DNA of 64,000 nt from Caulobacteraceae bacterium (GTDB lineage Bacteria; Pseudomonadota; Alphaproteobacteria; Caulobacterales; Caulobacteraceae): assembly GCA_947452365.1 (NCBI GenBank), contig CANGCO010000002.1:1-64000 (forward strand), in the 5' to 3' direction. Shown here one piece after another: positions 1 to 58,808 of the stretch (positions are counted from its first letter, which is position 1; every line of letters begins with the position of its first letter). The notes under the pieces are model-generated. The model did not search any database. It was not told the DNA's origin and worked only from the letters and a program-made list of their open reading frames with translations. The position numbers and the translations under genes were made by a program.

Positions 1-155
1 CCATCGACATCATGCCCGGTATGCTCATGATCAAGATGGGAACCTTGGACGACTTTTCCGGCATTGCGCCCGGCATTGAGGTCTATACGGACCACGCCGC
101 CAGTTGGATTTCGCCTATTGCCGGTGCCCGCCGCTTTGGTCAGGCAAGCAGCTAG
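1..155 (+). CDS. C-terminal end of a GFA-family protein (partial)
   Basis: Only the last 50 or so codons lie in the window, read in the frame that ends at the TAG at 153-155. The readable tail has the pattern KMGTLDDFSG followed by a stretch ending in a Trp (YTDHAASW). That matches the C-terminal end of the glutathione-dependent formaldehyde-activating (GFA) / CENP-V fold family, where a G-T-L-D-D turn precedes a strand ending in 'A..W'. The zinc-binding cysteines of this family would be upstream of the window and cannot be checked. The globin gene starts 9 nt downstream, so the two may be co-transcribed. The family call rests on the tail alone. Confidence 0.55.
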   Translation, partial: IDIMPGMLMIKMGTLDDFSGIAPGIEVYTDHAASWISPIAGARRFGQASS

Positions 156-164
156 GCGCCCGTC

Positions 165-605: not shown

Positions 606-631
606 AGCTATTGACGGGGAGGGGGATAAAC

Positions 632-1435
632 ATGATTGCCGTTAGGGACCTAAACTGTCTGCTCTATGCTGTGGCCGATCACGTTGCGACCATTACCTTG
701 AACCGCCCAGAGCGGCGCAATGCCTTGAACCGGCGGGCTTATGACGAGATTGAGGCGGCCTTTACCCATGCCAGTCGTGATCCGGATGTGCGCTGTGTCC
801 TGATGACAGGCGCCGATCCAGCCTTTTGTGCGGGCGAGGATGTTAAGGAAATGATGACCGGGGAAGTCACGGCCGGTCCGCTGAAGCCTGTGAGCGTGCG
901 ATTTGCACCAACGCCTGCAGCCATGGCCGTGATTAATTGCGAAAAGCCGGTGATTGCAGCGATTAATGGCTCGGCCGTGGGCTGGGGGATGGAACTGGCC
1001 CTCTATGCCGATATACGCTTGGCGTCGGAGCGGGCTGTGTTTGCCGAACTGTTTATCAAGCGCGGCCTTGTCTGTGATGTTGGCGGGTTTTGGAAACTGC
1101 CGAGCCTTGTCGGTCAGGCCAAGGCGGCCGAGCTCTTGTTCACAGGCGAGCCGATTAACGCGGTCGAGGCCGCGCGCATTGGTCTGGTCAGTTATACTCT
1201 AGCCCATGAGGACCTGATGCCGCGTGCCCAGGCCATGGCCGCCAGCATAGCTGCCAATCCCCCTCTGGCGCTGCGCTATATGAAGGAGGGCCTGCGCCGC
1301 GCCATGCCGGGTGATCCCAATGAGATCGGCGCCTGGGCCATAGAGGTGATCCACAGATTGTTTGCCACCGAGGATCATCGTGAGGGCGTACAAAGCTTTT
1401 TGCAAAAACGGGCACCGGTGTTTAAGGGCGCTTGA
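632..1435 (+). CDS. Enoyl-CoA hydratase/isomerase family protein
   Basis: A 267-aa crotonase-fold protein. The N-terminus carries the family signature TLNRPERRNALN. The two oxyanion-hole segments are seen as FCAGEDV (about residue 68) and NGSAVGWGMELAL (about residue 118). The C-terminus ends with the typical F-x-x-KRAPVFKG tail. The ATG at 632 is preferred because a purine-rich stretch (gggagggggataaac) sits just upstream and because homology begins there. The open frame extends upstream to 467, but that part overlaps the globin and does not resemble protein. The substrate cannot be told from sequence. The stop overlaps the start of the next gene by one base, implying co-translation. It resembles the hydratase at 34370-35191 in overall organisation. 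Confidence 0.85.
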   Translation: MIAVRDLNCLLYAVADHVATITLNRPERRNALNRRAYDEIEAAFTHASRDPDVRCVLMTGADPAFCAGEDVKEMMTGEVTAGPLKPVSVRFAPTPAAMAVINCEKPVIAAINGSAVGWGMELALYADIRLASERAVFAELFIKRGLVCDVGGFWKLPSLVGQAKAAELLFTGEPINAVEAARIGLVSYTLAHEDLMPRAQAMAASIAANPPLALRYMKEGLRRAMPGDPNEIGAWAIEVIHRLFATEDHREGVQSFLQKRAPVFKGA

Positions 1436-1926
1436 TGATCCCAGTTTCTGACCCCGCCGCTTCCGGCCCCCGCCTGTTTGTTGATGCCGATGCCTGTCCG
1501 GTTAAGGACGAGGTCTATAAGGTCTCGCGGCGCTATGGACTGAAGGTCTATGTGGTGGCCAATAGTTTTCTGCTTGTGCCTAGGGAGGACCTCATTGAGC
1601 GGATCGTGGTCGATGCGGGCCCAGATGTTGCCGATGACTGGATTGTCGAGCAGTGCCAGCCCGGCGACATTATAATTACCGCCGATATTCCACTGGCAGG
1701 CCGATGTCTGGAAAAAGCCGCGTTTGTGATTGGCCCGGCCGGCAGGGCCTTTACCCCTGATACAATTGGCATGGCCTTAGCGCAAAGGGGCCTAGCTGAG
1801 CACTTGCGATCGACCGGCGAAATCACGCGTGGTCCGCCGCCTTTTCAGGCCACTGATCGATCCAGATTTTTATCAGCTCTGGATGAGGCCGTGCATAAGT
1901 CTAGGCGCAGTAAACCAATCAAGTAA
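1435..1926 (+). CDS. YaiI/YqxD (UPF0178, DUF188) family protein
   Basis: A 163-aa protein of the widely conserved DUF188 family, which has a PIN-like NYN fold and no settled function. The diagnostic segments are visible: the N-terminal DADACPVK motif (about residues 17-24) and the acidic DIIITADIPLA segment near residue 77. Both are thought to form a metal-binding nuclease-like centre. The ATG at 1435 overlaps the preceding stop by one base (TGATG). A TTG three bases upstream is possible. The coupling to an enoyl-CoA hydratase is probably positional only. After its stop the sequence becomes strongly AT-rich. Confidence 0.88.
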   Translation: MIPVSDPAASGPRLFVDADACPVKDEVYKVSRRYGLKVYVVANSFLLVPREDLIERIVVDAGPDVADDWIVEQCQPGDIIITADIPLAGRCLEKAAFVIGPAGRAFTPDTIGMALAQRGLAEHLRSTGEITRGPPPFQATDRSRFLSALDEAVHKSRRSKPIK

Positions 1927-2108
1927 ACTTTGTTTATAATAAAAATTTATGTGCTATAATGTAATTATATTTGGATACAATAATTCTTTAAAAAACCATC
2001 AATATGATGAAATATTCACGCCATATTTATTTCACAGAATCTCGCTAAGCCTCCTATCTCGCTTGCGGGCACCCATGGCCTGCGGGGTTGATGAGTTTTG
2101 GGGGTAAT
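1927..2108 (+). promoter_or_regulatory. AT-rich promoter region ahead of the TonB-dependent receptor
   Basis: This 180-base spacer is far richer in A and T than its surroundings. It contains an exact TATAAT at 1955-1960, with a weak TTGTTT about 19 bases upstream, and further AT tracts to about 2030. It probably holds the promoter and regulator sites for the receptor gene. No clear long inverted repeat or riboswitch-like fold was seen. The -35 match is poor, so the exact promoter position is uncertain. Confidence 0.35.
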
Positions 2109-4724
2109 ATGAGCTTGATGTATCGACGCGTCCTATGTCTGGGCGCCGTCTCCTTTGTTGCGCTCGCAACGGCAATGGAAACACAAGCCGCTGAGAGTGG
2201 CGCGGCACTGGTTGATGAAATCGTCGTGACGGCCTCGTATGCGAAAAGCCTAGAAGCGGCAGCAACGCTCAAGCGCGCCGCCAATTATGGCCTAGATGCA
2301 GTCAATGCTGAGGATATCGGCAAGTTCCCAACCCGTAACGCCGCCGATGCCCTGCAACTGGTCACTGGCGTCACCGTTGAAAAACAGCGCGGCGCGGGCC
2401 TTTATGTCAGTGTCCGCGGCCTAGGACCTCAGTTTCAAAATGTTCAGCTCAATGGCCGCTCGATCGCGGTCAATGACCTGATCGAGAACGGCGGCGCTCG
2501 GGGCCGGCAGTTTCGATTTGAGGTTTTGCCGTCCGAGTTGATTTCTCAGATCGAGGTGGTCAAGACCCCATCGGCCGAAATGGATGATGGCGCGCTTGGC
2601 GGCAACATCAATATCAAGACCTTTAAACCGCTGGAGCTTGGCACGCGCGCGGCCTTTTCCGTTCGTCAGACCTATAATGATGTCCGCAAAAAAACCGATC
2701 CGGCAGTATCTGGCCTCTATAGCTGGAAAAGCGCGGATGGCAGCTTGGGCCTGATGGCATCGGGCCTTTACGATGACAGCCATGGTCGCACCGATCGCCT
2801 CTATCAGGTCGGTTGGAACCTCGACAGGTTCAAAAACGTCCTTGGCACCGGCTTCTATACCCCGTCGCGGACCCGCCCGACGATCGAGACCGAGCACAGG
2901 ACGCTGAAGTCGGGCGCGTTCTCGGCCCAGTGGCAGCCCAATAGTGACTTCCAGACCGATTTTGATATTCTCACGACCCGGCTTGATGTGGCCTATGATG
3001 AATTTGGCCTCGACATCTATCCCGACGATACGACGTTTGCGACGCCTGTATTTGTCAGTGGCAGCCAAAAGATTGTTGGTAATACGGTTCAGGCCGGGAC
3101 GATTAATAATGTGCGCTGGATGGCCTCGCGCGAAACCAGCCTCAATCGTCATGACTTGACGGCGGGCGGGTTAAAGCAGACCTGGACCCCCGGTCTATGG
3201 ACCTTTACCGCCGAGTTCGCCATGTCGCGCGCGCGCAGCTATCACCCTGCAGGCCGAGCGACCACGCGCAACCGGATCGCCTTTTTCGCGCCTCTAAGCT
3301 ATGATTTTTCGCGCGGTTATCAGTCTATACCCCAACTCACCACAACGGTGGACTATACCAAACCCGCCAATTTTGTCGGCCAGGCGTTTGACTATACCTG
3401 GAAGGACAGCCGCGATAGCGATGACATGTTCCGCGTCGATGGAAGCCATGCTTTCGATGGCGTGCTGACCAAGGTCGCATTTGGCGCCGAATACCATCAC
3501 CGGAACCGCGACTATCGCCGCCGTGACTGGGTCTTGAACACCATATTAAACACGCCCCTAACCAGCCTCGGTTCAGACTTTTACGGCCCATTGCCTTATA
3601 GTGGCTTCTTATCTGACAAGAGCGGAAACACGCCAAGGAACTGGGTCAATCCTTCTTCAACGGCGTTTTACAAGCTGCTCTATACCGATGCTGTCGCGGC
3701 CCTTCCGCGATCGAACGCTGATTATCGCAACACATTTGAGGTCGATGAGAAAATCTCCGGCGCCTATTTGCGCGGCGATTTTGCACTGGACGTTCAGTCG
3801 GTCCCCATCACCGGAAACCTTGGCGTGCGTTATGCCAAGACCAAACAGGTCGCTAAGGGCACCTTGATCAATGGCTCCACCCCGGTGCCGGTCGCCTATC
3901 CCAAGACCTATGATAACTGGCTGCCCAGCTTGAACATCAAGGCCCAGCTCAATGATGACTTGATCATGCGCTTCGCGGCCTCGCGGGTGGTTAATCGTCC
4001 CAATGTGACCGATGTTGCCCCGCGGATCACGGTGTCGCGGGACTCTCCCACCGCATCGGGCGGTAACCCCGGGCTTGAGGCCTTCCTAGCAACCCAGCTT
4101 GATGCATCGATCGAATGGTATCCCAATGCGGGCACAGCTCTGACAGCGGCGGTGTTTTACAAAAAGCTGGACGACTATATCACCGCCACAAACACGACCA
4201 TTCAGGTTCCTAGCCGGGGCGATGTCTTGCTCTCGACCCAGGTCAATGGCGGTGAAGCCAAGGTCAAGGGCCTAGAAATTGCCTTTAATTAAGCCTTTAC
4301 CGGCCTGCCAGCACCCTTTGATGGATTGGGGGCCCAGGCCTCGTTCACTCTAGTGGACAGCCAGGCAAGCTATTTTGTCGGCAATCGCCAGATTAAGGAC
4401 GCCTTGGTTGGCCTGTCCAAATCGAGCTACAATATTGTCGGTTATTACGAAAAAGGCCCGATTGCGGCGCGGCTTGGCTATTTCTGGCGCGCCAAGTATC
4501 TGAACTCGATCGGCAGTACGACCACTGTACAAAACTATGTCGATGATTACGGCTCACTCGATGGGTCGGTATCCTATCAGATCACGCCGCAATATGCGGT
4601 ATCGATCGAAGGCTCGAACCTGTCCGACAGCTATCGCTATATTTATGGCGCGACCAAGGACCAGCCCGAAGAAATCTATCACTGGGGCAGGACTGTATCC
4701 CTAACCCTGCGCGGTAAGTTTTAA
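2109..4724 (+). pseudogene. TonB-dependent receptor interrupted by one in-frame stop
   Basis: The reading frame encodes a large outer-membrane TonB-dependent receptor of the Xanthomonas/Caulobacter type. It has a signal peptide (about residues 1-30, ending TQAAE), a TonB box (DEIVVTASY), a plug domain with RGLGPQFQNVQLNGR, and a long beta-barrel. At 4290-4292, codon 728 of 872, a TAA interrupts the barrel. The same frame then continues without any shift through typical C-terminal barrel strands to 4724, ending in the terminal aromatic-x-F pattern LTLRGKF. The family usually has Gln or Lys-like residues here, so a CAA to TAA change is the simplest explanation. The truncated product would lack the last strands. 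ATG 2109 is preferred because GGGGGT precedes it; ATG 2091 is also possible. A sequencing error cannot be excluded. Confidence 0.8.
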
Positions 4725-41886: not shown

Positions 41887-41969
41887 TGTCTCTTGTCTCC
41901 TTGACCTGAAACACGATTTTTACATGTTTTTTGCTATGGTGCGCGGATCAATCAGGAAAGATTTGTCCC

Positions 41970-44651
41970 ATGAGCCTTGATGAGTCGACCACGCGGCGGG
42001 TGTCGCAAAACGTCAGACTGCTAGAGCGGCTATTTCATGAGGCTGTATCTTATCTCGACGGTGAAGCGAAACTCGCCCAGGTGCGCCATGCGCGGGCCGA
42101 TGACGGTGACTTATCGGCGCTGAATGCCGAGGATGCGGTTTATCTGGTACGGGCCTTGGCGTGCCTATCGACCCTGACCAATATCTCCGAAGATGTGGCC
42201 GGGCGGCGGCGGCTGGACGACGCCCTTGTCGACGGGCGGCCTGCCACCTTGACCGGTGCGATTGCGCTTAAACGTGGCGAAGGGCTGGATGATGATCAGA
42301 TCCATGCCGTATTGGCGAATATGCGCCTGACCCCGGTCTTGACCGCCCACCCGACCGAAATGCGCCGCGCCTCGGTTGTTGATCGCGAATTTGAGGTATC
42401 GCGTATACTGGGCCTTCGCCGCCATGCCCTACCTCGGACCTTGGATATCTGGACCCAGGACGAACTATTTCGCGCCGTTGCCCTCCTATGGAAGACCCGG
42501 TTGCACCGGCCCGATCGCATCACGGTCAGCGACGAGATCGACAATACTTTGGGCTTCGTCAAGCGGGCCATATTGCCAGCCTTGGTGCGCCTATATGAAG
42601 ATTGGGACCGGGACCTGCCCGAACAATCTCCCTTCCCGCTTGTGCTAGGGCTCGGCTCATGGATTGGCGGCGACCGAGACGGTCACCCACATGTCGATCA
42701 GGTGACGCTAAAACTGGCGCTCGCCCAGCAGGGCCAAGTGATTTTCGCGTATTATCTGGACGAGCTCGACCGCCTGGAAGGTGAGCTAACCCTGTCCTTG
42801 ACCCTAGCGCCCGTATCCGACGAGGTTATGGAACTGGCCAGACGCTCGGCGCAACATTCGGTGCACCGGGCCGATGAGCCCTATCGCCGGGCCCTGACCT
42901 ATATTCGTGACCGGGTATTGGCCACGGCACAGAGCCTCAGCGCCTTGCCGGCCGGCACGACACCCGTCCAAAGCGACGTGTCGGCGTCTGGCTATGGCGC
43001 GCCCTCAGACCTCATCCAAGACTTGTCAAATGTGCGCGATAGTTTGATTGCCCATGGTGGTGAGCGATTGGTTGGCTCCGGCCTTAAGACCCTATTGCAG
43101 ATGGTGCGCTGCTGCGGGTTTCACCTTTTGTCGCTGGACCTTCGTCAAAATGCCGATGTCCATGAACGTGTTATCGCCGAACTGTTCGCCCAATCCCCTG
43201 CCCCGATCGATTATTTGGGCCTGGACGAAGATCAAAGAATTGAGGTCCTGATCGCACAGCTCAGCGATGAGCGGGTCTTGCGCTGGCCATTTGCCTCCTA
43301 TTCAGACCTGACCAAGCGCGAACTGAAAATCCTTGATGCCGCGGCCGAAACCGTCAAGGCTTATGGCCCAGAAGCGATCGGGGCCTATGTGGTATCCAAG
43401 GCGGCCTCGGTCTCTGATATATTGGAGCCCTTGGTCCTGCTCAAACAGGCCGGACTTGTTTTTGGCGGCGCAGCCCCCCGGTCCATGCTGCGCGTTGCGC
43501 CCCTGTTTGAAACCATTGCCGACCTTGAAGCCGCGCCCGCCATTATTGACCGATGGCTAAAGCTGCCCGCAGCCCGCGCCTTACTTGGGCCCGGCGCAGT
43601 GCAAGAAGTCATGCTAGGCTATTCCGACAGCAATAAGGATGGCGGCTATACCGCCTCGCGCTGGTCCCTGCACCGGGCCTCAAGCGAGATCCTAAAAACC
43701 TGCCAGGCCCACGAGGTCGGCTTGCAGTTGTTTCATGGTCGCGGCGGGTCGGTTGGACGCGGCGGCGGTTCCAGCTTTGCGGCGATCTTGGCGCAGCCTA
43801 GCGGCACGGTTCAGGGGCGTATGCGTCTAACCGAGCAAGGCGAAATGATTGCGCGAAGATTTGGCGATGAGGTGGCGGCGCGCAAGAGCCTAGACAGCCT
43901 AACGGCAGCCGTTTTCCTGGCGACCACCCATAAGGACACAACCAAGCGCCCCAGTAGCTCGCTTGATGCCCAATTTGGGCCAGTCATGGATCAGATTACA
44001 GCCGGGTCGTGCGAAGCCTATCAAGATCTCGTTTATCGCGACCAGGCCTTTGCGCCATTTTTCCGCACCGCAACCCCCATTTCCGAAATCATTGATTTAA
44101 AGATTGGCAGTCGCCCGGCCTCACGGACAGCCTCAGGTCGAATTGAAGATCTGCGCGCAATTCCTTGGGTGTTTAGCTGGTCTCAGTCGCGCTTCATGTT
44201 GCCGGGCTGGTACGGGTTTGCCTCTGGCGTTAAGCAGGCCGGCACCTCGGTAAACCAGTTGCAAGACATGGCTGGATCATGGGGTTTTATGGACACCTTT
44301 TTGGCCAATATGGCGGTCGCCTTAGCCCAGAGCGACATGGCCATTGCCAAGGCCTATGCGGGCCTCGCCCCAGACAAGGCCGCATCCGAACGCATTTTCG
44401 CAAAGATTGCCAAGGAATGGGAAGAGGCAAACACGCTGATCCTAGCGGTTCGTGGCATGAGCGGCCTGCTCGATGATCAGGCCGAACTGGCCGCCTCGAT
44501 TGCCCTGTCTCGGCCGTGTCTTAATCCCTTAAATAGGCTACAGATTGAACTCTTATCGAGGCGGCGGCGCGGCGAGACGGGCGACTCCATCCAGCTCGGC
44601 ATTCAGCTGACCTTGAACGGAATAGCGGCAGCCCTGCGCAATACCGGCTAA
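41970..44651 (+). CDS. ppc: Phosphoenolpyruvate carboxylase
   Basis: An 893-aa PEP carboxylase, the usual full length. The catalytic His is residue 127 in LTAHPTEMRR, the second signature is VMLGYSDSNKDGGY (about residues 546-559), and the third, FHGRGGSVGRGGG, supplies the catalytic Arg and Gly loop. The PEP-binding LGSWIGGDRDGHPHV is also present, as is the C-terminal tail NGIAAALRNTG. It carboxylates PEP with bicarbonate to give oxaloacetate, refilling the TCA cycle. ATG 41970 follows AGGAAAG; a longer frame begins at 41931. The beta-carbonic anhydrase at 49308 could supply bicarbonate. It is an unusual gene to find on a replicon with a plasmid-type origin. Confidence 0.95.
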   Translation: MSLDESTTRRVSQNVRLLERLFHEAVSYLDGEAKLAQVRHARADDGDLSALNAEDAVYLVRALACLSTLTNISEDVAGRRRLDDALVDGRPATLTGAIALKRGEGLDDDQIHAVLANMRLTPVLTAHPTEMRRASVVDREFEVSRILGLRRHALPRTLDIWTQDELFRAVALLWKTRLHRPDRITVSDEIDNTLGFVKRAILPALVRLYEDWDRDLPEQSPFPLVLGLGSWIGGDRDGHPHVDQVTLKLALAQQGQVIFAYYLDELDRLEGELTLSLTLAPVSDEVMELARRSAQHSVHRADEPYRRALTYIRDRVLATAQSLSALPAGTTPVQSDVSASGYGAPSDLIQDLSNVRDSLIAHGGERLVGSGLKTLLQMVRCCGFHLLSLDLRQNADVHERVIAELFAQSPAPIDYLGLDEDQRIEVLIAQLSDERVLRWPFASYSDLTKRELKILDAAAETVKAYGPEAIGAYVVSKAASVSDILEPLVLLKQAGLVFGGAAPRSMLRVAPLFETIADLEAAPAIIDRWLKLPAARALLGPGAVQEVMLGYSDSNKDGGYTASRWSLHRASSEILKTCQAHEVGLQLFHGRGGSVGRGGGSSFAAILAQPSGTVQGRMRLTEQGEMIARRFGDEVAARKSLDSLTAAVFLATTHKDTTKRPSSSLDAQFGPVMDQITAGSCEAYQDLVYRDQAFAPFFRTATPISEIIDLKIGSRPASRTASGRIEDLRAIPWVFSWSQSRFMLPGWYGFASGVKQAGTSVNQLQDMAGSWGFMDTFLANMAVALAQSDMAIAKAYAGLAPDKAASERIFAKIAKEWEEANTLILAVRGMSGLLDDQAELAASIALSRPCLNPLNRLQIELLSRRRRGETGDSIQLGIQLTLNGIAAALRNTG

Positions 44652-49307: not shown

Positions 49308-49937
49308 ATGATAAAGGACTTAATTCGCAAGAACCGCGCCTGGTCTGCCGCCAAGACCGAGATCGATCCGCAGTTTTTCAAACGCCTCGCCTCGCAGCAA
49401 TCGCCGGAATACCTATGGATCGGGTGTTCGGATAGTCGCGTTCCTGCCAATGAGATTGTTGGGCTTGATCCTGGTGAATTGTTCGTCCATCGCAATGTCG
49501 CCAATCTCGCCCCGCCCCAAGACGCCAATTATCTATCTGTGCTGCAATATGCCGTGGAGGTATTAAAGGTGCGCCACATTATGGTGGTTGGCCATTATGG
49601 CTGCGGCGGCATTTCAGCGGCAGTCGATGGCCAGAGACATGGACTAATTGATCACTGGCTACATCCCATCCGTGAAACCTATGACGAGAACCGTACGGAC
49701 CTAGACGCGTTGGCTGAGGGCACCGAACGCCTCAATAGGCTATGCGAACTCAACGTCATTCGGCAGGTCCGCAATGTCGCTTCTGATGTGTTTGTTCAGG
49801 ACGCCTGGAACCGTGATCAGGTGCTGTCGGTTCATGGCTGGGTCTATTCACTCAATAATGGCCTAGTCACTGATCTGGGCGTTAGTGTCTCCAATCTGGT
49901 CGATTATCAGGCACTCGTGGGCCGTAACCACCCCTGA
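49308..49937 (+). CDS. can: Beta-class carbonic anhydrase
   Basis: A 209-aa beta-carbonic anhydrase. The zinc ligands are visible at Cys40 and Asp42/Arg44 in IGCSDSRVPANE, and at His96 and Cys99 in VVGHYGCGG. The C-terminal LSVHGWVYSLNNGLVTDLGVS is also conserved. It interconverts CO2 and bicarbonate and could feed PEP carboxylase and biotin carboxylases, both of which need bicarbonate and are encoded in this window. ATG 49308 is preceded by GGAGAGGG. After its stop the sequence becomes AT-rich and leads to the partition genes. Confidence 0.92.
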   Translation: MIKDLIRKNRAWSAAKTEIDPQFFKRLASQQSPEYLWIGCSDSRVPANEIVGLDPGELFVHRNVANLAPPQDANYLSVLQYAVEVLKVRHIMVVGHYGCGGISAAVDGQRHGLIDHWLHPIRETYDENRTDLDALAEGTERLNRLCELNVIRQVRNVASDVFVQDAWNRDQVLSVHGWVYSLNNGLVTDLGVSVSNLVDYQALVGRNHP

Positions 49938-50119: not shown

Positions 50120-50300
50120 CGCCATAATGGATATCTTTTTATTATCTATAGCTACTAATATGATATTGATTATCCATCCCTTAGTAGCGGTGATATATTA
50201 ATCAGATATTTTTGGTATCTAATTGACGGCAATAGATAGACAATGGGTTGGTAATAGCTATAGGCTGACTATCGCAAGATATTTGACGATAGGTTTGGAT
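50120..50300. other. AT-rich inverted-repeat region, candidate partition (centromere) site
   Basis: This stretch between carbonic anhydrase and parA is markedly AT-rich. It contains at least three perfect inverted repeats: CTATAGCTA (50146-50154) with TAGCTATAG (50255-50263), GCTACTA (50151-50157) with TAGTAGC (50182-50188), and CTATCG (50269-50274) with CGATAG (50287-50292). GATAT and TTGACG also recur. Such repeats directly upstream of a parA gene usually form the centromere and promoter bound by the small partition protein. A weak DnaA-box-like TTATCCATC lies at 50170-50178. It is unusual next to the GC-rich genes around it. Confidence 0.5.
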
Positions 50301-50392
50301 AGCCGCGCCTAGCTAGGGCTAGTCCGAGGCAATCCCCAATCTAGACCCTTGTGCCGCGATCATTTTTCAGGAGGGGCCCCGGCCCAGATGAA

Positions 50393-51073
50393 ATGCCAGT
50401 AATCTCATTCGTTAGCCCCAAGGGCGGCGTCGGCAAGACCACCTCGGCTGTACTGCTCGGCGGCCTATTGGCGGATAAGGGTGCGCCCGTCTCCATGATT
50501 GACGCCGACCCTAACCAACCGGTCTCATCTTGGGCGCAGCTTCCGGGGCGACCTGAAAATCTGCGGGTCATTCGTGACGTGACCCAGGACACAGTGATGG
50601 ATGTAATCGAGGAGGAGGCCCGGCGCTCGACCTTTGTCATATGTGACCTAGAAGGTACCGCCTCCTTGACCGTGTCCTATGCCGTGTCGCGCTCCGATCT
50701 TGTCCTGATCCCGCTTCAAGGCTCCCATCTAGACGCGGCCCAGGCAGCAAGAGCGGTGAAGTTGGTGAAATCGACCGAAAAAGCCATCGGCCGGCCGGTT
50801 CCATTTGCCCTGTTCTTTAATCGCGTCAGTGCGGTGATTCAGCCGAGAACCTTTCGCCATATTCGCGCAGAGTTCGAGACCGCCGGACTGCCCGTCCTTA
50901 ACTGCCTGTTGCAGGAACGCGAAGCCTACCGCGCCATATTCTCGTTTGGTGGTACGGTCGGAGGGCTAACCACAGCCCAAGCGTCAAACTTGGGTGCCGC
51001 CAAGGACAATATAGCCGATTTCGCAAAGGCTGTAATGGCGCGTCTGCGCCAGACCGCCGTAGCTGCGCAGTAG
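50393..51073 (+). CDS. parA: ParA-type partition ATPase
   Basis: A 226-aa MinD/ParA ATPase, short type without a DNA-binding N-terminal domain. The deviant Walker A is KGGVGKTT (residues 10-17), with the signature Lys10 and Lys15. Switch-like segments follow: DADPNQPVSSWAQLPG (about residues 39-54) and FVICDLEGTASLTVSYAVSRSD with the Walker B acid. It moves replicon copies to daughter cells with the small partner encoded 11 bases downstream. ATG 50393 begins the conserved sequence; a GTG at 50351 would add 14 residues. Upstream is the AT-rich repeat region. It lies convergent to repA, with iterons between, so it belongs to a replicon maintenance module. Confidence 0.88.
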   Translation: MPVISFVSPKGGVGKTTSAVLLGGLLADKGAPVSMIDADPNQPVSSWAQLPGRPENLRVIRDVTQDTVMDVIEEEARRSTFVICDLEGTASLTVSYAVSRSDLVLIPLQGSHLDAAQAARAVKLVKSTEKAIGRPVPFALFFNRVSAVIQPRTFRHIRAEFETAGLPVLNCLLQEREAYRAIFSFGGTVGGLTTAQASNLGAAKDNIADFAKAVMARLRQTAVAAQ

Positions 51074-51084
51074 GGAGGAGTGAC

Positions 51085-51528
51085 ATGATTGATCAACCCA
51101 TAAAAACCCGTGTTGCGCTCGATCTCGGCGACGATGATGATGATCTGGGCCTGGATCTTAGCGCCTTTAAGCCACGCTCAGCGCCGCTTGGCTCAGGTGG
51201 AGCGGCCACGGCTCAGCAGGCCTTGCGGACGGCATCCGAAAAACAAGGTTTTCACGCAAGACCCGAAACGCCGGTCGCACCCCTGCCCCGGGTCAAGGTG
51301 GTTAAGGCTAAGCCAGCCATCGTTGAACCTATTGTTCGTCGCCGCGCTCGACGCAAGACAGGGCGAGTGCATCAACTCAATGTCAAACTCACTCGCGAAA
51401 CCATTGAGTATGTTTATGACCTTGCCGATACCCGAGGCTGGATTGTCGCAGAAGTGATCGAACATGCGCTTGATGTTTTGAAAGCAACGCCTGAGGGAAA
51501 AGCCAAGCGTTTGCGTGAGCGCCCTTGA
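51085..51528 (+). CDS. Small partition protein, probable ribbon-helix-helix (ParG-like)
   Basis: A 147-aa protein encoded 11 nt after parA in the same operon. The N-terminal 60 residues are acidic and low-complexity (DLGDDDDDLGLDLS). A basic stretch (PIVRRRARRKTGRVHQ) is followed by QLNVKLTRETIEYVYDLADT and then WIVAEVIEHALDVL, a strand-helix-helix pattern like the ribbon-helix-helix DNA-binding fold. Short ParA proteins generally work with small RHH centromere-binding proteins, so this is probably the ParB/ParG counterpart. The call rests on position and fold pattern rather than on a recognised family. Confidence 0.68.
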   Translation: MIDQPIKTRVALDLGDDDDDLGLDLSAFKPRSAPLGSGGAATAQQALRTASEKQGFHARPETPVAPLPRVKVVKAKPAIVEPIVRRRARRKTGRVHQLNVKLTRETIEYVYDLADTRGWIVAEVIEHALDVLKATPEGKAKRLRERP

Positions 51529-51548
51529 TCCTTGCCCACCAAGGCCAA

Positions 51549-51571
51549 GGCGCGCCCTTGTTTGGCGCGCC
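51549..51571 (+). terminator. Hairpin of two GGCGCGCC copies after the partition operon
   Basis: GGCGCGCC occurs at 51549-51556 and again at 51564-51571. It is self-complementary, so the two copies can pair as a stem around a 7-nt loop. It lies 20 bases after the partition gene stop and could end that transcript before it enters the iteron region. A second GC-rich partial hairpin follows. No T tract. Confidence 0.4.
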
Positions 51572-51670
51572 GCCGGGCCTTAAGGGCGGCGTTAATAAGG
51601 TTATTAAAGTCTGTTAGAAAGTTAAGCCTTGGGATTTCCGTTTGAAATCAATGCCCTAAGCCTGGTTTGC

Positions 51671-51753
51671 GTCGGCGATACCCCTAGATTTCGTCGGTGA
51701 TACCCCGGCCAATATGTCGGCGATACCCCGCATTGGCGTCGGCGTTACCCCGA
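51671..51753 (+). repeat. Iteron cluster A (4 direct repeats)
   Basis: Four 16-bp direct repeats related to GTCGGCGATACCCCTA start at 51671, 51693, 51716 and 51738, about 22-23 bases apart (two helical turns). The third and fourth end in CCCCGC/CCCCGA rather than CCCCTA, so this cluster is a slightly divergent version. They are the likely binding sites of the RepA protein encoded nearby. Confidence 0.85.
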
Positions 51754-51906
51754 CTTAGGGTGAGGTGAGCCTGAAGGTTTGGCACGTGGGGGGCGCTTAT
51801 CCCCCATGAAAGTGCGGTCCCATTACAAGCGTATTGACCGCGATTTTGGCTCTAGGGCGATAAGATGTCATCAGCGGCCTGAAAAAATCGAATCAGGACC
51901 AGAGGC

Positions 51907-52038
51907 GTCGGCGATACCCCTAAGATTTCGTCCTCGAAACCCCTAAGTTAGCGTCGCCAATACCCCTAAACGACCGTCTCCAATACCCCTAAGTGCGCGT
52001 CGTCGATCCCCCTAATTCTGGTGTCCGCGATACCCCTA
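51907..52038 (+). repeat. Iteron cluster B (6 direct repeats)
   Basis: Six repeats of the same family start at 51907, 51930, 51953, 51976, 51999 and 52023, again 23-24 bases apart. The right half, ACCCCTAA, is nearly constant, and the left half, GTCGGCGAT, drifts (GTCCTCGAA, GTCGCCAAT, GTCTCCAAT). The last copy ends in the complement of the repA stop codon, so origin and gene overlap. The constant 23-base step means RepA copies would bind on one face of the DNA. Confidence 0.87.
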
Positions 52039-53007
52039 ACGCTCGGGCGCAACGCCCATCATGTCATTATCGTCATCAAACAGGGCAAAAGAGAAGGATC
52101 CCTCAGGTTCATGCGCTGCGCCCCCAGCCTTGACCCTGAATTTCGGTGTAACGACCGCCAGCACCCGGTCATTGCGCAGACCCTTAAGCACATAGCCTTC
52201 CGCCCTCATGCCCTTCTCCATTTCGCCCGATGGATCGCGCGCCAGGCCATAGCGATAGTCGGGCAGGGGGTCACGTGCGATAATGTCCTTCAGCTCTGCT
52301 TTAAACTTACGAAGCTCGCCTGACACCCCAACCTTTTCGGCAAGTCGCGGCAGGCTGATCGACCAGCTGGCCTGATCGCCGCAATGTTTTCGTGCGAGCT
52401 CATAGAGCCTGCGCTCAATGCCGCCGGTGAGTTGGAAATAGTCGCGATTGACAGTCAGAACCCGCCTTTCCTTGGTGATGGCGCGAAAGGTCCAGTCATT
52501 GAGTGTGACTTCAACCGCCTTCATTCGCCGCCGTCCGCCCGGGCGCTCGATCTCAACCACCCGAAAATTGTCGATCCAGCCAAAGCCGCGCCGCTCACGT
52601 ACTTCTGCTGCTGAAATCGAGGTCTTGACCGTGGTCCCGCGTAGTCGTTCAAGCGCATCCAAAAAGGCGTCATAGGCCTTGGCACCGACCTGCCCAGGCT
52701 TTGCCCTCTGGGTCACGATCAAAAAATCATGGGCGGGGAAACGCACGGTCCGGCTTACGGGCTCGCCGCGCTCCATACGCTCATTGATCAAGGAGGTCAG
52801 ATAGATCAGGACGTCACGGTCCCAGACGGTTGCCACGCCCTTATGACTGGGGGCAACCTCGATCGTGACCCGATCATCACTATAGACAATCGGCTCCATC
52901 CTCGGCCGTTTGGCCAGAGAGAAGAAGGGAAATTCCAAGAGGGCGCGATCTTCTTTGATCGGCGCATCCACCAAGGCATCCAAAAAGAAATCTACCTGCC
53001 CCTTCAC
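52036..53007 (-). CDS. repA: Plasmid-type replication initiator RepA
   Basis: A 323-aa replication initiator of the RPA/RepA family (PF10134 type) common on alphaproteobacterial plasmids. Conserved segments are LLEFPFFSLAKRPRMEPIVY near the N-terminus, VWDRDVLIYLTSLI, then FRAITKERRVLTVNRDYFQLTGGIERRLYELARKHCG, and SISLPRLAEKVG, a winged-helix-type region. It should bind the iterons in front of its 3' end and open the origin. GTG 53007 is preferred since AAGG precedes it. The frame runs on to GTG 53061, but those codons coincide with a palindrome and look non-coding. The neighbours parA, iterons and xdhC mark it as part of a replicon module. Confidence 0.9.
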   Translation of the reverse strand: MKGQVDFFLDALVDAPIKEDRALLEFPFFSLAKRPRMEPIVYSDDRVTIEVAPSHKGVATVWDRDVLIYLTSLINERMERGEPVSRTVRFPAHDFLIVTQRAKPGQVGAKAYDAFLDALERLRGTTVKTSISAAEVRERRGFGWIDNFRVVEIERPGGRRRMKAVEVTLNDWTFRAITKERRVLTVNRDYFQLTGGIERRLYELARKHCGDQASWSISLPRLAEKVGVSGELRKFKAELKDIIARDPLPDYRYGLARDPSGEMEKGMRAEGYVLKGLRNDRVLAVVTPKFRVKAGGAAHEPEGSFSFALFDDDNDMMGVAPER

Positions 53008-53040
53008 AGGCTCCCTTTCGCGAATCGCTGTGCAACCGTC

Positions 53041-53058
53041 TGCAATACCCCTATTGCA
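53041..53058 (-). promoter_or_regulatory. Inverted iteron-like palindrome upstream of repA, possible autoregulatory operator
   Basis: TGCAATACCCCTATTGCA is a 7-bp perfect inverted repeat around CCCC. It contains the iteron core AATACCCCTA seen in cluster B. It lies 34 bases upstream of the preferred repA start. Iteron plasmids commonly place two opposed half-iterons in the rep promoter so that RepA dimers shut off their own gene. That is the likely role here, but it depends on the start site. Confidence 0.62.
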
Positions 53059-53182
53059 CACGGATTCTTGGTCAGAGTCTCGCCCTGAATTATTCTGCCA
53101 CCGAGCCCTTGAAAAACCGGCCCTATAAAGGTCATGTCTTAAAAACTAAACCGTCGTAAACCGATTCCGCCTCTAAGGCCCA

Positions 53183-54175
53183 ATGACCGAAATAATTGCC
53201 GGCCCAGCCACAGAGATCGTTTTGCCGGACTGGCCGGAATTTGGCCTGATTAATGATGTGCGCCCGCCGTTGTTTGCTGCAATTGGTCGCGGCGAGCCTG
53301 TGGCCCTAGCCACCCTGTTTCGCCTTAAGGGCGGCGGCCCACGGCCGGTTGGCACCCAGATGGCTTTTACCGCCAAGGCGGCACATGGTTTTTTGTCGGG
53401 TGGCTGTATTGAGGCCGATGTAACCTTGCATGCGGCGCAGGTCTTGGCAAACGGCGCACCCCAGAGGCTTGTCTATGGCCCATCAGGACCCTGGCCCGAT
53501 ATCCGCCTATTATGCGGGGCTGAGATTGAGATCTTGGTCGAGCAGATCTTGCCAGGTGATCTTGCGGTCAGGCAACTCATGGCGTTTAGCCTAGCCCGCA
53601 CACCCGCACATTGGGTCAGCAATGGTACGGCCCGCCATTGTCTTCCGGTCCAACATATTGAGCAGACCTTATGGCAAGAGGCGCCATTTGAGATCAGCCG
53701 CGCCTATTTGCCCGAGCCCCGCCTTATCATTGTCGGCTCTGATCCGGCGGCCCTGGCCATGGCTAGGCTTGGTGTGCAAAGTGGGTTTCAGACCTGGCTA
53801 AACCGGCCCAAAGGCCCCCAAGCCCCGCCGGCCATTGAGGGCTTGCATTATATCCGCTCCGATCCGCAAGCGGCGCTTGATGAGATTGGTCTGGACGCAT
53901 GGACCTCGGTGGCAGTCGCCAGCCACGATATGGAAATCGATCACGCCGCGCTTGTGACGGCGCTTGGCTCGAATGTCGGCTATGTTGGCCTATTGGGGGC
54001 CAGGCGGCGGCTGGCCGAGCGGATAGAGGCGCTCAAGGCCGCTGGCCTTGCGCCAGAACGCATTGCGCGCCTGCATGCGCCGATTGGTTTGGACCTTGGC
54101 GGCAAGGCGCCTTGGGAGGTCGCAATCAGCGTGCTTGGCCAGATTGTGCAAATCCGCCAGCAGGGTAATTTTTAG
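53183..54175 (+). CDS. xdhC: XdhC-family molybdenum cofactor chaperone
   Basis: A 330-aa XdhC/CoxI-family protein. The N-terminal part has RGEPVALATLFRLKGGGPRPVGTQMAF and GFLSGGCIEADV (about residues 74-85), containing the conserved Cys. The C-terminal Rossmann-like domain starts PRLIIVGSDPAALAMARLG and ends LHAPIGLDLGGKAPWEVAISVL, the family hallmark. XdhC binds and sulfurates molybdenum cofactor and delivers it to hydroxylases of the xanthine dehydrogenase type. It borders the moa/moe genes and the IorAB-like enzyme, so that enzyme is its likely client. Its last 4 bases overlap the end of moeA. It is divergent from repA across 175 bases. Confidence 0.85.
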   Translation: MTEIIAGPATEIVLPDWPEFGLINDVRPPLFAAIGRGEPVALATLFRLKGGGPRPVGTQMAFTAKAAHGFLSGGCIEADVTLHAAQVLANGAPQRLVYGPSGPWPDIRLLCGAEIEILVEQILPGDLAVRQLMAFSLARTPAHWVSNGTARHCLPVQHIEQTLWQEAPFEISRAYLPEPRLIIVGSDPAALAMARLGVQSGFQTWLNRPKGPQAPPAIEGLHYIRSDPQAALDEIGLDAWTSVAVASHDMEIDHAALVTALGSNVGYVGLLGARRRLAERIEALKAAGLAPERIARLHAPIGLDLGGKAPWEVAISVLGQIVQIRQQGNF

Positions 54176-55386
54176 AGCCGGTCTAGGCGCACAATCTCGA
54201 CGATTGCGCCTTGTTCAAGACCCTGGCCATTGGCTTCTTGCCGTATTAGGGCCCTTGCCTTGGCAAACACAGTGACCAGCGACGAGTCCTGATCGCCAAA
54301 TGGTCGGACCCAGACCTGACCTTGGCGGACCTCCAAATCCGCTCGGCTCCAGTGCTCGCGGGGGCCGCCCGATGTGCCCAGCGCGGGCAGGGGAGTGGCT
54401 AAAAAGGCGGTCTCAAGCTCTGGCCCCGGCTTCTGGCCCAGCATCGTCCGGATCAAGGGCTGCAAGAAGAGTTGTGCGCATACCAAGGCTGATGCGGGAT
54501 TGCCCGGAAGGCCCAGTACGCGTCGACCATCTTGCAGTGTGCCAAACCAGGTCGGCTTGCCCGGCCGGATGGCAATGCTCTGAACCCTCAATTCTAGGCC
54601 AAGTGTGGCCATGGCAGGCTTGACCAGATCATGATCCCCAACCGAGGCCCCGCCAAGTGTCAAGATCAGGTCCACATCCAGATCGCGTACGGCGCTCGCG
54701 ATGTCTTCAATTCTGTCTGCAGCGCAGTGAAGCCGCAGAGCCTTTGCGCCCCAGGTCTCAATAAGCGCGCAAATCGCTGTACTGCCCGAATTATAGATTT
54801 GGTTTGGCCCTGGCGCCTGACCGGGCTCAACCAATTCATCACCGGTCGACAAGACCGCCACCCTTGGCCGCTGGATCACATCAAGGACGGCGGCGCCTGC
54901 GCTGGCGGCCAAGGACAGCCGCCAAGCATCGAGCCGCTCGCCTGGCTCCAGCAAGACTGTGCCCTGCAGAAAATCGCCCCCTTGCGGGCGAATGTGACTA
55001 GAGCTTCCTGTATCGGCGCTGATAAAGGCAAACCTGCCTTCGCGGCGCACATGTTCCTGCACCACAACCCGGTCGCAGTCCTTGGGCAGGGGCGCGCCGG
55101 TAAAGATGCGTACGCATTGCCCCGTCGCCACCGGCCCCTCAAATCCGCCGCCGGCGGCGCTTTCACCAATAACTAAAAGTCCTGACGAGCTTTGAACGAG
55201 GTCGCTGCGCCGGACCGCATAGCCATCCATGGCCGAGGCAAAAAACGGCGGCTGATCGCGCTTTGCAATCACGCTCTCGGCTAGGACCCGGCCATGCGCG
55301 GCGGCTAGGTCTACGGTTTCGGGCCTAAGCTTGATGGCTGCTTCAAGGATCAGGCGGCGCGCCTCATGGACAGCAAGGTTCTTCAT
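54172..55386 (-). CDS. moeA: Molybdopterin molybdenumtransferase MoeA
   Basis: A 404-aa MoeA. Domain order is visible: the N-terminal [21 protein letters not shown], then [12 protein letters not shown] (residues 47-58), the GEPH-like domain with [27 protein letters not shown], and [19 protein letters not shown]. It inserts molybdate into adenylated molybdopterin to complete the cofactor. Its start overlaps the moaC stop by 4 nt and its end overlaps the end of convergent xdhC. It is the last of the six genes moaA-D-E-B-C-moeA read leftward. Confidence 0.92.
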
Positions 55387-55889
55387 TGATCCTGGCCGCT
55401 GCGGGGACGCTGAAAATCACCAGATGCCCCACCGGTCTTGCTGACCAGGCATATGCCCTCAATTGTCATGGTCTTATCGGCGGCTTTTAGCATGTCATAG
55501 AGGGTCAGGCAGGCAATGCTGACGGCGGTCAAGGCCTCCATCTCAACGCCTGTTGGCCCCGTGGTGCGCACCTTGGCCGTGACTTTTAGGCCAATGCCCA
55601 CAGCTTCAGTGACCTCAACACCGACCTTGGACAAGGCCAAAGGATGGCAAAGCGGGATCAGGTCCGAGGTCTTTTTTGCCCCCATGACCCCGGCAAGCTC
55701 GGCAACGGCCATGACCTCGCCCTTACGGCCCGCACCGGTTAGGGCCAGAACCAGGGTCGCCGGTGCCATTCGGATCAGGCCCTCGGCCGCGGCCTCGCGG
55801 GCGGTGTCTGGCTTGTGCGAGACATCCACCATGCGGGCGCGGCCCGTGGCATCTATATGGCTAAGGCTAGGCGTGTCTTTGGCCGTCAT
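55383..55889 (-). CDS. moaC: Cyclic pyranopterin monophosphate synthase MoaC
   Basis: A 168-aa MoaC of usual length. It begins [18 protein letters not shown] (typical), carries [18 protein letters not shown] with the catalytic His region and [21 protein letters not shown], and ends near the family's usual GGKSG-like turn ([10 protein letters not shown]). With MoaA it converts GTP to cyclic pyranopterin monophosphate, the first step of molybdenum cofactor synthesis. It lies 3 nt downstream of the MoaB gene on the same strand and is coupled to moeA. Confidence 0.93.
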
Positions 55890-55892
55890 GAC

Positions 55893-56447
55893 TTAGACCT
55901 CGTTCAGGCGCGGCATGAGCTCGACCAGATTGCAAGGCTTGTGACGGCTATTGAGCTGGGCACTGATCACCTTGTCCCAGCCGTCCTTGACGGCGCCATT
56001 CGAGCCCGGCAGGCAAAACACAAACACCCCGCCTATAATCCCGGCCAAGGCCCGGCTTTGCAGCGTCGATAAGCCCACCGTCTGGGTGCTGACCATGTGA
56101 AACACGACCGAAAACCCTTCAATGCGCTTGTCAAAAAGCGGCTCAACCGCTTCAGGTGTCACATCGCGGCCGGTCAGGCCTGTGCCGCCTGTGGTAATAA
56201 TGGCGTCGATCTGACCCGAACCCACCCAGGCGAGGACCTGAGCGCGAATGGCAGTGCGATCATCACGAACCATGGCGCGGCCCGCTAGCACGTGCCCGGC
56301 CTCGCTAACCCGGCTAGCCAAGAGATCGCCTGAGGTATCGCTTTCCTCATCACGGGTATCGGATACGGTCAAGACTGCGACCCGCACCGCGATATGCGGC
56401 AAGGTCTCGTCAATACGGCCGCCAAAGCCGGGGGGCAGGGTGCTCAT
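55893..56447 (-). CDS. moaB: Molybdopterin-adenylating protein of MoaB/Mog family
   Basis: A 184-aa MoaB/MogA-type protein. The pattern VLTVSDTRDEESDTSGDLLA (about residues 24-43) is the start of the MoCF fold, and IITTGGTGLTGRDVTPEAVEPLFD is the diagnostic glycine loop plus substrate-binding segment. FCLPGSNGAVKDGWDKVIS follows. MoaB-like proteins adenylate molybdopterin, serving where a MogA is lacking, as would be the case here. It lies 10 nt after moaE in the same transcript. Distinction from MogA is uncertain, but length and the GTG loop favour the MoaB type. Confidence 0.88.
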   Translation of the reverse strand: MSTLPPGFGGRIDETLPHIAVRVAVLTVSDTRDEESDTSGDLLASRVSEAGHVLAGRAMVRDDRTAIRAQVLAWVGSGQIDAIITTGGTGLTGRDVTPEAVEPLFDKRIEGFSVVFHMVSTQTVGLSTLQSRALAGIIGGVFVFCLPGSNGAVKDGWDKVISAQLNSRHKPCNLVELMPRLNEV

Positions 56448-56457
56448 TTTTAGATCC

Positions 56458-56922
56458 TTATTTGTTCGCGCCGCCTGGGCTGACCTTCCAGCGGTCCAGA
56501 TCTTGATAGTCTATGCTGCGTGGCTCGATCCAGTGTGTACCGCCAGGGCCATGTTGCTTTTTCCAAAACGGGGCCTGGCTTTTCAGGTGATCCATTAGGA
56601 AGTCGGCACCCTCAAACGCCTGACGCCGATGCCGGGCTGCGCAGGCAACAAAGACGATGGCTTGGCTGGGCGCAATCAAGCCGGTCCGGTGTACAATGAG
56701 TGCATCTAGCAAAGAAAAGCGCTGCCCTGCGGTTAAGACCAGTTCCTCGATCCAGATTTCTGTAAAACCAGGATAGGCTTCAAGCTCTAGGCCCGTGACC
56801 TGGCCATCTTCGTGGCGGGCGAGCCCTGTAAAACTAACCACCCCCCCAATATCGGTCCGGCCCAGGCAAAACTGGTTTAGCAGGGCGCCGATATCGAGGT
56901 CTTCGGTTTGGAGCCTAATCAT
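56458..56922 (-). CDS. moaE: Molybdopterin synthase catalytic subunit MoaE
   Basis: A 154-aa MoaE. Conserved parts are DIGGVVSFTGLARHEDG (about residues 25-41), ALIVHRTGLIAPSQAIVFVACAARHRRQAFEG with the conserved His-Arg pair, and PFWKKQHGPGGTHWIEP, which carries the catalytic Lys-Lys. It works with MoaD, encoded just upstream and overlapping by 4 nt, to put the dithiolene sulfurs on precursor Z. Confidence 0.92.
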   Translation of the reverse strand: MIRLQTEDLDIGALLNQFCLGRTDIGGVVSFTGLARHEDGQVTGLELEAYPGFTEIWIEELVLTAGQRFSLLDALIVHRTGLIAPSQAIVFVACAARHRRQAFEGADFLMDHLKSQAPFWKKQHGPGGTHWIEPRSIDYQDLDRWKVSPGGANK

Positions 56923-57152
56923 CCGCCGCTCATGGGGGGTAAAAACGCCACTTCGGACCGCGGGCCAAGTAAGGCATGGCCGCGCACAATCGCCTTATCG
57001 ACCGCGACCTGAACACCGGGCCCGTTGACAGCCAGAGCAAGCTCAGGATCCAGTTGCGCCATCAAGCTGGCCAAATCCGCGACCCCGTCAAAATCGCGCT
57101 CGCGCCATCCGGCAAGATCACGCAGGGGCCCAAACAGCAAGACCTTGGCCAT
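56919..57152 (-). CDS. moaD: Molybdopterin synthase sulfur-carrier subunit MoaD
   Basis: A 77-aa ubiquitin-like protein starting MAKVLLFGPLRDLAG and ending EVAFLPPMSGG. The C-terminal Gly-Gly is the thiocarboxylate-bearing tail needed for sulfur transfer, and FLPPMSGG is the family signature. ATG 57152 is used because it begins the fold; an upstream frame start at 57224 overlaps moaA and adds a meaningless tail. It lies 4 nt downstream of moaA and overlaps moaE by 4 nt. A MoeB-type activating enzyme is not seen nearby and must be encoded elsewhere. Confidence 0.92.
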   Translation of the reverse strand: MAKVLLFGPLRDLAGWRERDFDGVADLASLMAQLDPELALAVNGPGVQVAVDKAIVRGHALLGPRSEVAFLPPMSGG

Positions 57153-57156
57153 GATA

Positions 57157-58197
57157 CTAGCCCCCCGTCCGTGACATGTGCCGCTGTAAGGTTGGTGCCA
57201 AGCCCTCACGAATCTGAAAATCATGGCGCTTGGGCTTTAACCCAATCGCGCCCTGAATTGCTGAGTCAAGCCCGTCGACCCCTAATGGCCCGCGCAAGAC
57301 GGCGCGCAAATCGGTCTCGTCCTCATGCCCAAGACAGGTATGCAAGGTGCCCGTACAGGTCAGGCGCACGCGATTGCAGGCCTCGCAAAATGTATGCGAC
57401 ATGGGTGTAATTAGGCCGAGTCGGCCGCCGGTTTCCGCGACCCGCACATAACGCGCAGGCCCCCCGGTCTGAAGCGGGATATCGCTTAAGGTCCAGAATG
57501 AGGCCAAATGGTCGCGCACTGTCGCCAGCGATAAAAACTGTGTCGTGCGGTCTTGGCCAGTATCACCAAGCGGCATGGTCTCGATTAAGGTCAGGTCAAA
57601 CCCACGCCCATGTGCCCAGCCAATGAGGTCTGGGATTTCGTCCTGATTGGTGCCAAGCAAGGCAACCGTATTGATCTTGATCGCTAGGCCGGCGGCTTGA
57701 GCGGCATCGAGCCCCTTAAGCACCTGGCCTATCTGGCCGCCGCGGGTCAGGCTGGAAAATAGGTCGGGTTTGAGCGTATCGAGCGAGACATTAATCCGCT
57801 TGATGCCAAACTTGGCAAGGTCTTCAGCATAGGTGGCCAATTGGGTGCCATTGGTGGTCAAGGTCAGCTCATCCAGGCCCCCGCTGGCAAGATGGCGCGA
57901 TAGGTTCTCGATCAGGCCCATAATGCCTTTGCGAACCAAGGGCTCACCGCCGGTTAAGCGGATTTTGCGCACGCCCATGGCGATAAACTTGCTGGTCATG
58001 ATATCGAGTTCTTCTAAGCTCAAGACCTCAGCCTTGGGCAGGAAGACCATATGCTCGGCCATGCAATAGACACACCTTAAATCACAACGGTCCGTCACCG
58101 AGACCCGCAAATAGCGCACTGCGCGGCCAAACCCGTCGATCAGATCGGGACGGGATTGATTGGCGGTGGCATAGGCAGCGGAGTCAAACGGAGGCAT
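57157..58197 (-). CDS. moaA: GTP 3',8-cyclase MoaA
   Basis: A 346-aa radical SAM enzyme. Cys38, Cys42 and Cys45 form the CDLRCVYC motif for the first [4Fe-4S] cluster. The C-terminal cysteines ([18 protein letters not shown]) bind the second cluster and [19 protein letters not shown] follows the expected radical SAM glycine-rich strand, and the protein ends in Gly-Gly, as MoaA should. It makes the first pterin intermediate from GTP. It is the first gene of the leftward moa operon and stands 29 nt away from the divergent cytidylyltransferase gene, so promoters must lie partly inside the coding regions. Confidence 0.95.
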
Positions 58198-58226
58198 GAT
58201 GGGTCCGGCTAAAGGAGCGTTTAGAC

Positions 58227-58808
58227 ATGACGACAGACCCCATATGGAGCGCCATCATCTTGGCAGCGGGTCAGTGTAGCCGTTTTGGCGGCGGCAAGCT
58301 ACGGGCGGTTTACAAGGAAAAACCTGTTCTGGACTGGGTTTTGGGCGCGGCCTTGGCCTGCCCGGTTGCCGAGATCGTGGTGGTGTGCGGGGGCGATCCA
58401 GTGATTGCCAACACTCTGCCTATCGATGGTCGGATCAAGGGCGTCTGGGCCAAGGATCATGCCCTCGGCATGGGGGCATCTTTAAGCGAGGGGCTGGGCG
58501 CCCTAGATCCAAAAAGTCGGGGCGCCTTGGTGTTTTTGGGCGACATGCCGCGCGTGCCAGCACATCTGGTCAGGGATCTGATTGCTGCGATAGGGCAGGG
58601 GGCCTTGGCCGCGGCCCCAGAATTCGCCGGTCGTCGGGGCCATCCGGTACTGATTTCATCTGCGCTATTTGACCAGATCGACGCGCTTAGGGGCGATCAA
58701 GGAGCCGGCCAGATCCTAGACCAACTCGGCGAAAAGCTTGTCCTGATCAAGGCCCCGGACGATGGATGCCTGTTCGACATCGATCGGCCGGGGGATCTGA
58801 TGGCCTAG
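58227..58808 (+). CDS. mocA: Molybdenum cofactor cytidylyltransferase (MocA-like)
   Basis: A 193-aa nucleotidyltransferase. The substrate loop is [17 protein letters not shown] (about residues 11-27), and [10 protein letters not shown] follows near residue 108, with FDIDRPGDL at the end. This layout fits MocA/MobA-like transferases, with the Gly-Gly-Gly-Lys loop and Asp-Met-Pro typical of MocA, which adds CMP to make the MCD cofactor used by xanthine-oxidase-family enzymes. The adjacent IorAB genes need exactly that form. A MobA role (GMP transfer) is less likely. An AAAGGAG site stands before the ATG, and the last four bases overlap the end of the iorB gene. Confidence 0.83.

Follow-up and report, generated by a model that had tools for sequence, protein, structure and literature searches.

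A plasmid-type replication and partition module of a freshwater Caulobacteraceae bacterium probably drives a small chromid carrying chpT, ppc and molybdenum cofactor genes

Does a plasmid-type replication and partition module embedded among chromosome-like metabolic genes drive a replicon of its own? The question is raised by a 64,000-nt stretch of DNA from a Caulobacteraceae bacterium (source genome G000), which corresponds to positions 1 to 64,000 of contig CANGCO010000002.1 (C2) and is called here the window; coordinates are those of the window. The module, formed by parA, a small partition gene, iterons and repA, lies at 50120-53061. The initial annotation had hesitated between a chromid, a large megaplasmid and an integrated plasmid with a surviving origin. 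We found that the module very probably drives a separate circular chromid of about 109 kb, vertically inherited and replicated from an iteron/RPA origin. The skew flip, the closing contig ends, the composition, the single-copy core genes and the co-inheritance favour a chromid, and a size of about 109 kb does not fit a megaplasmid.

The elements announced for the module (repeats, parA, a small ribbon-helix-helix (RHH)-like protein, iterons and a convergent repA) were all found in that order, and are, from left to right:

50120-50345, no strand: GATA/TATC (GATANC) array, centromere-like, upstream of parA
50393-51073, + strand: parA, ParA partition ATPase of 226 amino acids (aa) (NF041546, Pfam VirC1, CbiA; matches to plasmid ParA and to sister proteins)
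51085-51528, + strand: gene for a small ParB-like protein of 147 aa, similar to plasmid "stability/partitioning determinant" proteins
51532-51590, + strand: strong GC-rich hairpin (minimum free energy -38.2 kcal/mol, z -2.3); a GGCGCGC hairpin is present in the sister species too
51670-51751, + strand: iteron block 1, 4 copies of CGTCGGCGATACCCC with a 22-23 bp pitch
51752-51905, no strand: inter-block spacer, giving a start-to-start step of 169 bp that is fixed in four species
51906-52036, + strand: iteron block 2, 6 copies with a 23-24 bp pitch that run up to the repA stop codon
52036-53007, - strand: repA, RPA-type initiator of 323 aa (Pfam PF10134), starting at GTG 53007
53037-53057, no strand: 11th iteron, within the palindrome GCAATACCCCTATTGC, a short way upstream of repA

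RepA matched the Pfam RPA family (PF10134) at 8.5e-75 with 251.7 bits (cut-off 27) over profile positions 1-227 of 228, which corresponds to the full-length domain, and its gene was the single RPA gene in the 2.59-Mb, 133-contig genome. The best plasmid RepAs, from Magnetospirillum XM-1, Roseomonas mucosa, Kozakia and Komagataeibacter, exhibited 54-59% identity, and no plasmid RepA or ParA at 60% identity or above was among the matches. The true start of repA is most likely the GTG at 53007 on the minus strand, which has an AAGGGAG ribosome site and at which the sister proteins also start, and not the listed GTG at 53061, because the latter would place the conserved operator inside the gene. 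For parA, the ATG at 50393 is most likely the true start, rather than 50351. The iteron core motif had 14 matches in the window compared with 2.9 ± 1.7 in shuffled sequences (largest 9; none reaching 14). Eleven of the 14 belong to the module, ten of them in the two blocks, all on the plus strand with a 22-24 bp pitch. This 4 + 169-bp step + 6 + 1 layout was shared by the four species compared, with a diverged spacer sequence and, in some species, single iteron copies bearing one extra substitution. The iteron core of the palindrome at 53037 was identical in the four species, and the palindrome is likely the RepA operator for autorepression. The hairpin that follows parA and the small gene is likely a terminator or an insulator ahead of the origin. 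GANTC (CcrM-type) sites were observed inside the iteron spacer or close to it, one at 51752-51905 here and up to four in the sister genome G006, and are a possible tie of the origin to the cell cycle.

The partition side of the module was also of plasmid type. ParA matched the NF041546 ParA_partition profile at 2.8e-33, under the curated cut-off of that profile, as well as Pfam VirC1 (1e-15) and CbiA; its best plasmid ParA match shared 56% identity, and the proteins of the sister species 87-89%. The 147-aa protein matched plasmid "stability/partitioning determinants", in some records adjoining the ParA match. Its C-terminal half is nearly invariant among sisters and holds a conserved RHH-like stretch at the C-terminus; the AlphaFold model, with a mean pLDDT (predicted local distance difference test) of 55, is too weak to use and places two helices close to the C-terminus, as expected of an RHH. 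Type Ib partition combines ParA, an RHH protein and an upstream repeat centromere, and is a possible class for this system. The initial annotation was right in placing a repeat element upstream of parA; this element is less a set of AT-rich inverted repeats than an array of GATA/TATC words (often GATANC), of which 13 were counted against 6 expected (4/1000 shuffles), often spaced by 10-11 bp. Three sister species had 16-18 words (0/1000 shuffles) at the same position within diverged surrounding sequence. The array is likely the binding site of the small partition protein, with words about one helical turn apart.

We compared the module with sister contigs, which come from Caulobacteraceae metagenome-assembled genomes of separate assemblies. 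The neighbours of the module were identical in G002, G005 and G006, with broad synteny of C2 over about 40-90 kb, and a G004 contig retained the repA-side flank (repA, xdhC and moa, up to 68.7 kb). A join of two unrelated contigs at 50-53 kb, which had been named as what would refute the proposal, was thus excluded by the recurrence of the same layout in several separate assemblies. Orthology and synteny of the module extend over at least four species of a single freshwater genus. An orthologous repA was present in 5/7 genus members, the remaining two genomes being 63% and 83% complete; a closed genome was looked for within the genus and none was found. RepA was 93-94% identical among sisters and, between C2 and G005, ranked first of 48 orthologues (93.7%, compared with 81.5% for DnaA); together with the conserved iteron layout, this ranking argues for a working origin. 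RPA-type repA genes were also observed in chromosome-sized contigs of other Caulobacteraceae, G024:C1 (5.55 Mb) and G015:C9 (2.76 Mb, also bearing dnaA), and are perhaps integrated elements.

The contig ends then pointed to a circle. In these assemblies, neighbouring contigs share exactly 149 bp at their ends (the k of the assembler), as verified on C23 and C4 of G005, which are adjacent by synteny, and the last 149 bp of C2 are the first 149 bp of contig C45. The gene cut at this junction is uninterrupted in G005:C23 and G002:C186. At the other end, the last 3.7 kb of C45 align with C2 1-3716 in the same orientation with 85% identity overall, the last 128 bp being identical to C2 3589-3716. 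The proposed circle consists of C2 3717-94016 and C45 150-19131, that is 109,282 bp or 4.2% of the assembly, and no C2 or C45 end matching any other G000 contig was found. C2 opens with 100 bp that recur unchanged at the end of a G004 contig, and its positions 1-3716 are probably a G004-like haplotype joined inside a TonB receptor gene, of which C45 15428-19131 would be the own-species version. C45 itself is probably own-species, because its divergence from G004 is similar to that of the remainder of C2 (long matches of 80-91% and 87-88%, respectively). In G005, a closing of the circle via a TonB gene shared with G006:C86 was rejected, no overlap being found.

We also analysed the G/C skew at four-fold sites, separating the strand effect (D) from the codon bias. 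This correction was required because gene orientation dominates the raw window GC skew. On C2, D was -0.065 ± 0.017 left of repA and +0.039 ± 0.015 right of it, with a best breakpoint at 50-55 kb and a step at repA reached by 0/1000 permutations, which treat genes as independent. When the 109,282-bp circle was analysed, the skew placed the origin best at 50-52 kb, with the iterons 2-4 kb away at 48.1 kb (0/2000 permutations); this two-armed skew supports bidirectional replication. The same sign change was seen in the sisters. Among the other G000 contigs tested (C1, C3, C4, C5, C6 and C9), the largest positive step, and the sole flip of comparable strength, was on C4 at 67 kb, adjoining two canonical parS sites; on C1, the step was smaller (0.054) and the sign unchanged. 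We take the C4 flank, with hemE, RP001, trmE, gidA and parB named by sequence recognition, to be the usual Caulobacter origin. The features of the Caulobacter Cori (hemE-RP001, parS, with parB and gidA nearby) are on C4 and not on C2, and dnaA-dnaN-recF-gyrB is on C9. The ordinary dnaA/parB/hemE origin lies on other contigs, in agreement with the earlier remark that dnaA and gidA are not in the window. A search for dif sites with an E. coli-like pattern and with the C. crescentus dif (PMC2731167) gave no usable matches, here or in the other family members searched.

Base and codon composition of the replicon matched the chromosome. The GC content was 58.52% for the circle versus 58.53% for 496 kb of other contigs, and two distances fell inside the spread of those contigs: the dinucleotide distance delta* was 10.3 (spread 5.6-29.1) and the codon distance 0.057 (spread 0.055-0.124). 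The median orthologue identity to G005 was 76.4% for the replicon and 76.1% for the chromosomal contigs.

The replicon cargo includes ppc (PF00311), chpT (PF10090), a response regulator, cheR, ald, a CinA-type protein, a Moco (molybdenum cofactor)-dependent oxidoreductase and TonB receptors. It also comprises moa/moe/mob genes, polyamine-type genes and a liu/MCC-type cluster; gene groups of the cargo without a family match were named by sequence recognition. In the window, the landmarks are:

41931-44651, + strand: ppc, phosphoenolpyruvate carboxylase (PF00311, 3.7e-243), sole strong match in G000
49308-49937, + strand: carbonic anhydrase (PF00484), left neighbour of the module
53183-58808, no strand: xdhC-like, moeA, moaC, moaB, moaE, moaD, moaA and mobA-like genes, right neighbour of the module (names except xdhC by sequence recognition)

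The sole strong matches in G000 to chpT, ppc, moaA and ald were on C2, chpT lying beyond the window; ctrA was on C26 (a 90% identical match to a C. crescentus CtrA query sequence). In C. crescentus, ChpT is an essential protein (PMC3433190). A single tRNA-Thr(UGU) was found in G005 (C4:51757) and in G002 (C1:64091), in both on the repA replicon, and the only one found in G006 was on C71, which overlaps C87, itself overlapping the replicon contig C1; in G000, this tRNA was on C26 and C92. In relatives without RepA, including the single-contig genome G016, chpT, moaA, xdhC, ald and others were present; ppc and moe genes also occurred in RepA-less relatives. G010, of a sister genus, which has the closest DnaA outside the genus and no RepA, carries chpT-moa-xdhC together on its contig C10, with a largely colinear moa block, about 15 kb from genes that G000 has on its dnaA contig; its carbonic anhydrase is on its own dnaA contig (G010:C3). 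This arrangement suggests that the replicon took up chromosomal DNA from near the origin.

From these elements, a mode of maintenance can be proposed. RepA would bind the iterons between repA and parA and open the origin, and replication would proceed both ways to a terminus opposite the origin. By binding also the iteron-bearing palindrome at its own promoter, RepA would limit its own synthesis. The small RHH-like protein would coat the GATA array and ParA, using ATP, would pull the sister copies apart, as family and layout indicate. Core functions would then depend on a RepA-controlled replicon, whose separateness we infer from the contig ends. Loss of the replicon is expected to be costly or lethal, because the only copies of chpT, of the molybdenum cofactor genes and of ppc are on it; it would be kept, and it evolves like a chromosome, as shown by the equal divergence. 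More tentatively, and with the balance of probability somewhat against it, a capture of origin-proximal DNA of the chromosome in the ancestor of the genus may have made a very small RPA/iteron chromid with the only chpT and an initiator of its own, on which the CckA-ChpT-CtrA relay would depend and whose origin, with GANTC sites in the iteron spacer, may be wired to the cell cycle.

Several observations weigh against a separate chromid. Circularity rests on contig ends of short-read metagenome assemblies, and the second junction consists of a 128-bp identity and a 3.7-kb dovetail at 85%, where C2 seems to switch haplotype. In G005, the chain runs C4-C74-C52 on one side and to C39 on the other, by a weaker 129-bp overlap with C23; C39 carries purE/purK, thiolase and glnB-type genes, a tRNA-Ser and transposases, and represents either chromosomal genes taken up by the G005 replicon or a misleading overlap. 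The skew signals of the sisters are individually weak (49/1000 permutations for G002, 50/1000 for G006 and 146/1000 for G005), chpT is 65% identical between species of the genus with its function assumed, and 109 kb is small for a chromid. Part of this would suit a plasmid integrated in the main chromosome with its RepA origin still active, so that a single chromosome would have two origins: relatives hold many of the passenger genes on the chromosome, xdhC-moa-chpT of G010 lies near genes of the G000 dnaA contig, the RPA genes of G024 and G015 are within chromosome-sized contigs, and C39 ties purEK-type genes to the G005 replicon by 129 bp. We consider such an integration unlikely, given that C45 joins both ends of C2 in circle order and orientation whereas neither contig has an end found to match another G000 contig.

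If the plasmid were integrated with its rep/par genes no longer acting, nothing beyond the possibility of integration would speak for it, and the 11 iterons at fixed spacing, the 94% identity of RepA, the conserved operator palindrome and the skew flip at the site leave this fossil state hardly credible. An ordinary dispensable plasmid having picked up chromosomal genes would agree with the 109-kb size, the plasmid-type rep/par genes and the accessory content that varies in part between species. It is nevertheless very improbable in view of the repA in 5/7 genus members, the syntenic core, a RepA that is the slowest-evolving protein on the contig, the absence of other strong matches to chpT, ppc, moaA and ald, and a composition and divergence equal to those of the chromosome; no relaxase was recognised by eye, no systematic relaxase search having been made.

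Chromids are defined by plasmid-type replication and partition, chromosome-like composition and core genes (PMC12456017; definition also in PMC6090056). The replicon has a PF10134 RepA, a ParA, a small ParB-like protein, iterons and a GATA array, its composition and codon use are chromosome-like, and it carries core genes whose counterparts in relatives are chromosomal. By these three usual criteria it fits the known chromid class, and is unusual in size, initiator and cargo. It shares these traits with Vibrio cholerae Chr2 and the chromids of Paracoccus aminophilus and Dinoroseobacter shibae, from which it differs by an RPA-family initiator, a Caulobacteraceae host and a single-copy chpT in its cargo. 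A small chromid of 72 kb has a precedent in D. shibae (PMC4373377), and chromids replicate uni- or bidirectionally (PMC7858055). Alphaproteobacterial RPA-type plasmids have a RepA at 54-59% identity, and ParA with a small "stability/partitioning determinant" also occurs on other alphaproteobacterial plasmids; in contrast to these, the present replicon is vertically inherited and a core-gene carrier. Plasmids with the only rRNA operon (rrn) are known in Aureimonas and Persicobacteraceae, where stable maintenance is tied to Rep_3-family initiators and to the rrn operons (PMC10645730). Like them, the replicon would hold indispensable functions on a small plasmid-type molecule over long times; its initiator is RPA and not Rep_3, and in place of rrn it carries chpT and cofactor genes, joined in the sisters by a tRNA. 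A limited literature search found no paper on a chpT-bearing chromid or on this genus.

If the proposal is true, a conserved replicon of about 109 kb holds an anaplerotic enzyme, the synthesis of the molybdenum cofactor and a hub of the Caulobacter cell-cycle relay. Small replicons of plasmid type are not where essential genes are expected, and once-per-cycle replication is nowhere better understood than in the order Caulobacterales. The replicon would offer a compact natural divided genome that can be set against sister genera without RepA, and it raises the question of how an iteron origin stays in step with DnaA/CtrA control in this order.

Within the genus, a different RPA-type RepA was observed in G001 on a 3.5-kb contig (C435), and perhaps belongs to a second, unrelated plasmid. 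On the G005 replicon contig, positions 62-129 kb of C4 form an accessory stretch with a transposase, an amidase, TonB receptors and a carbon-phosphorus (C-P) lyase (phn) cluster; apart from this stretch, phnJ was seen in G003 only, which indicates that the replicon gains and loses cargo.

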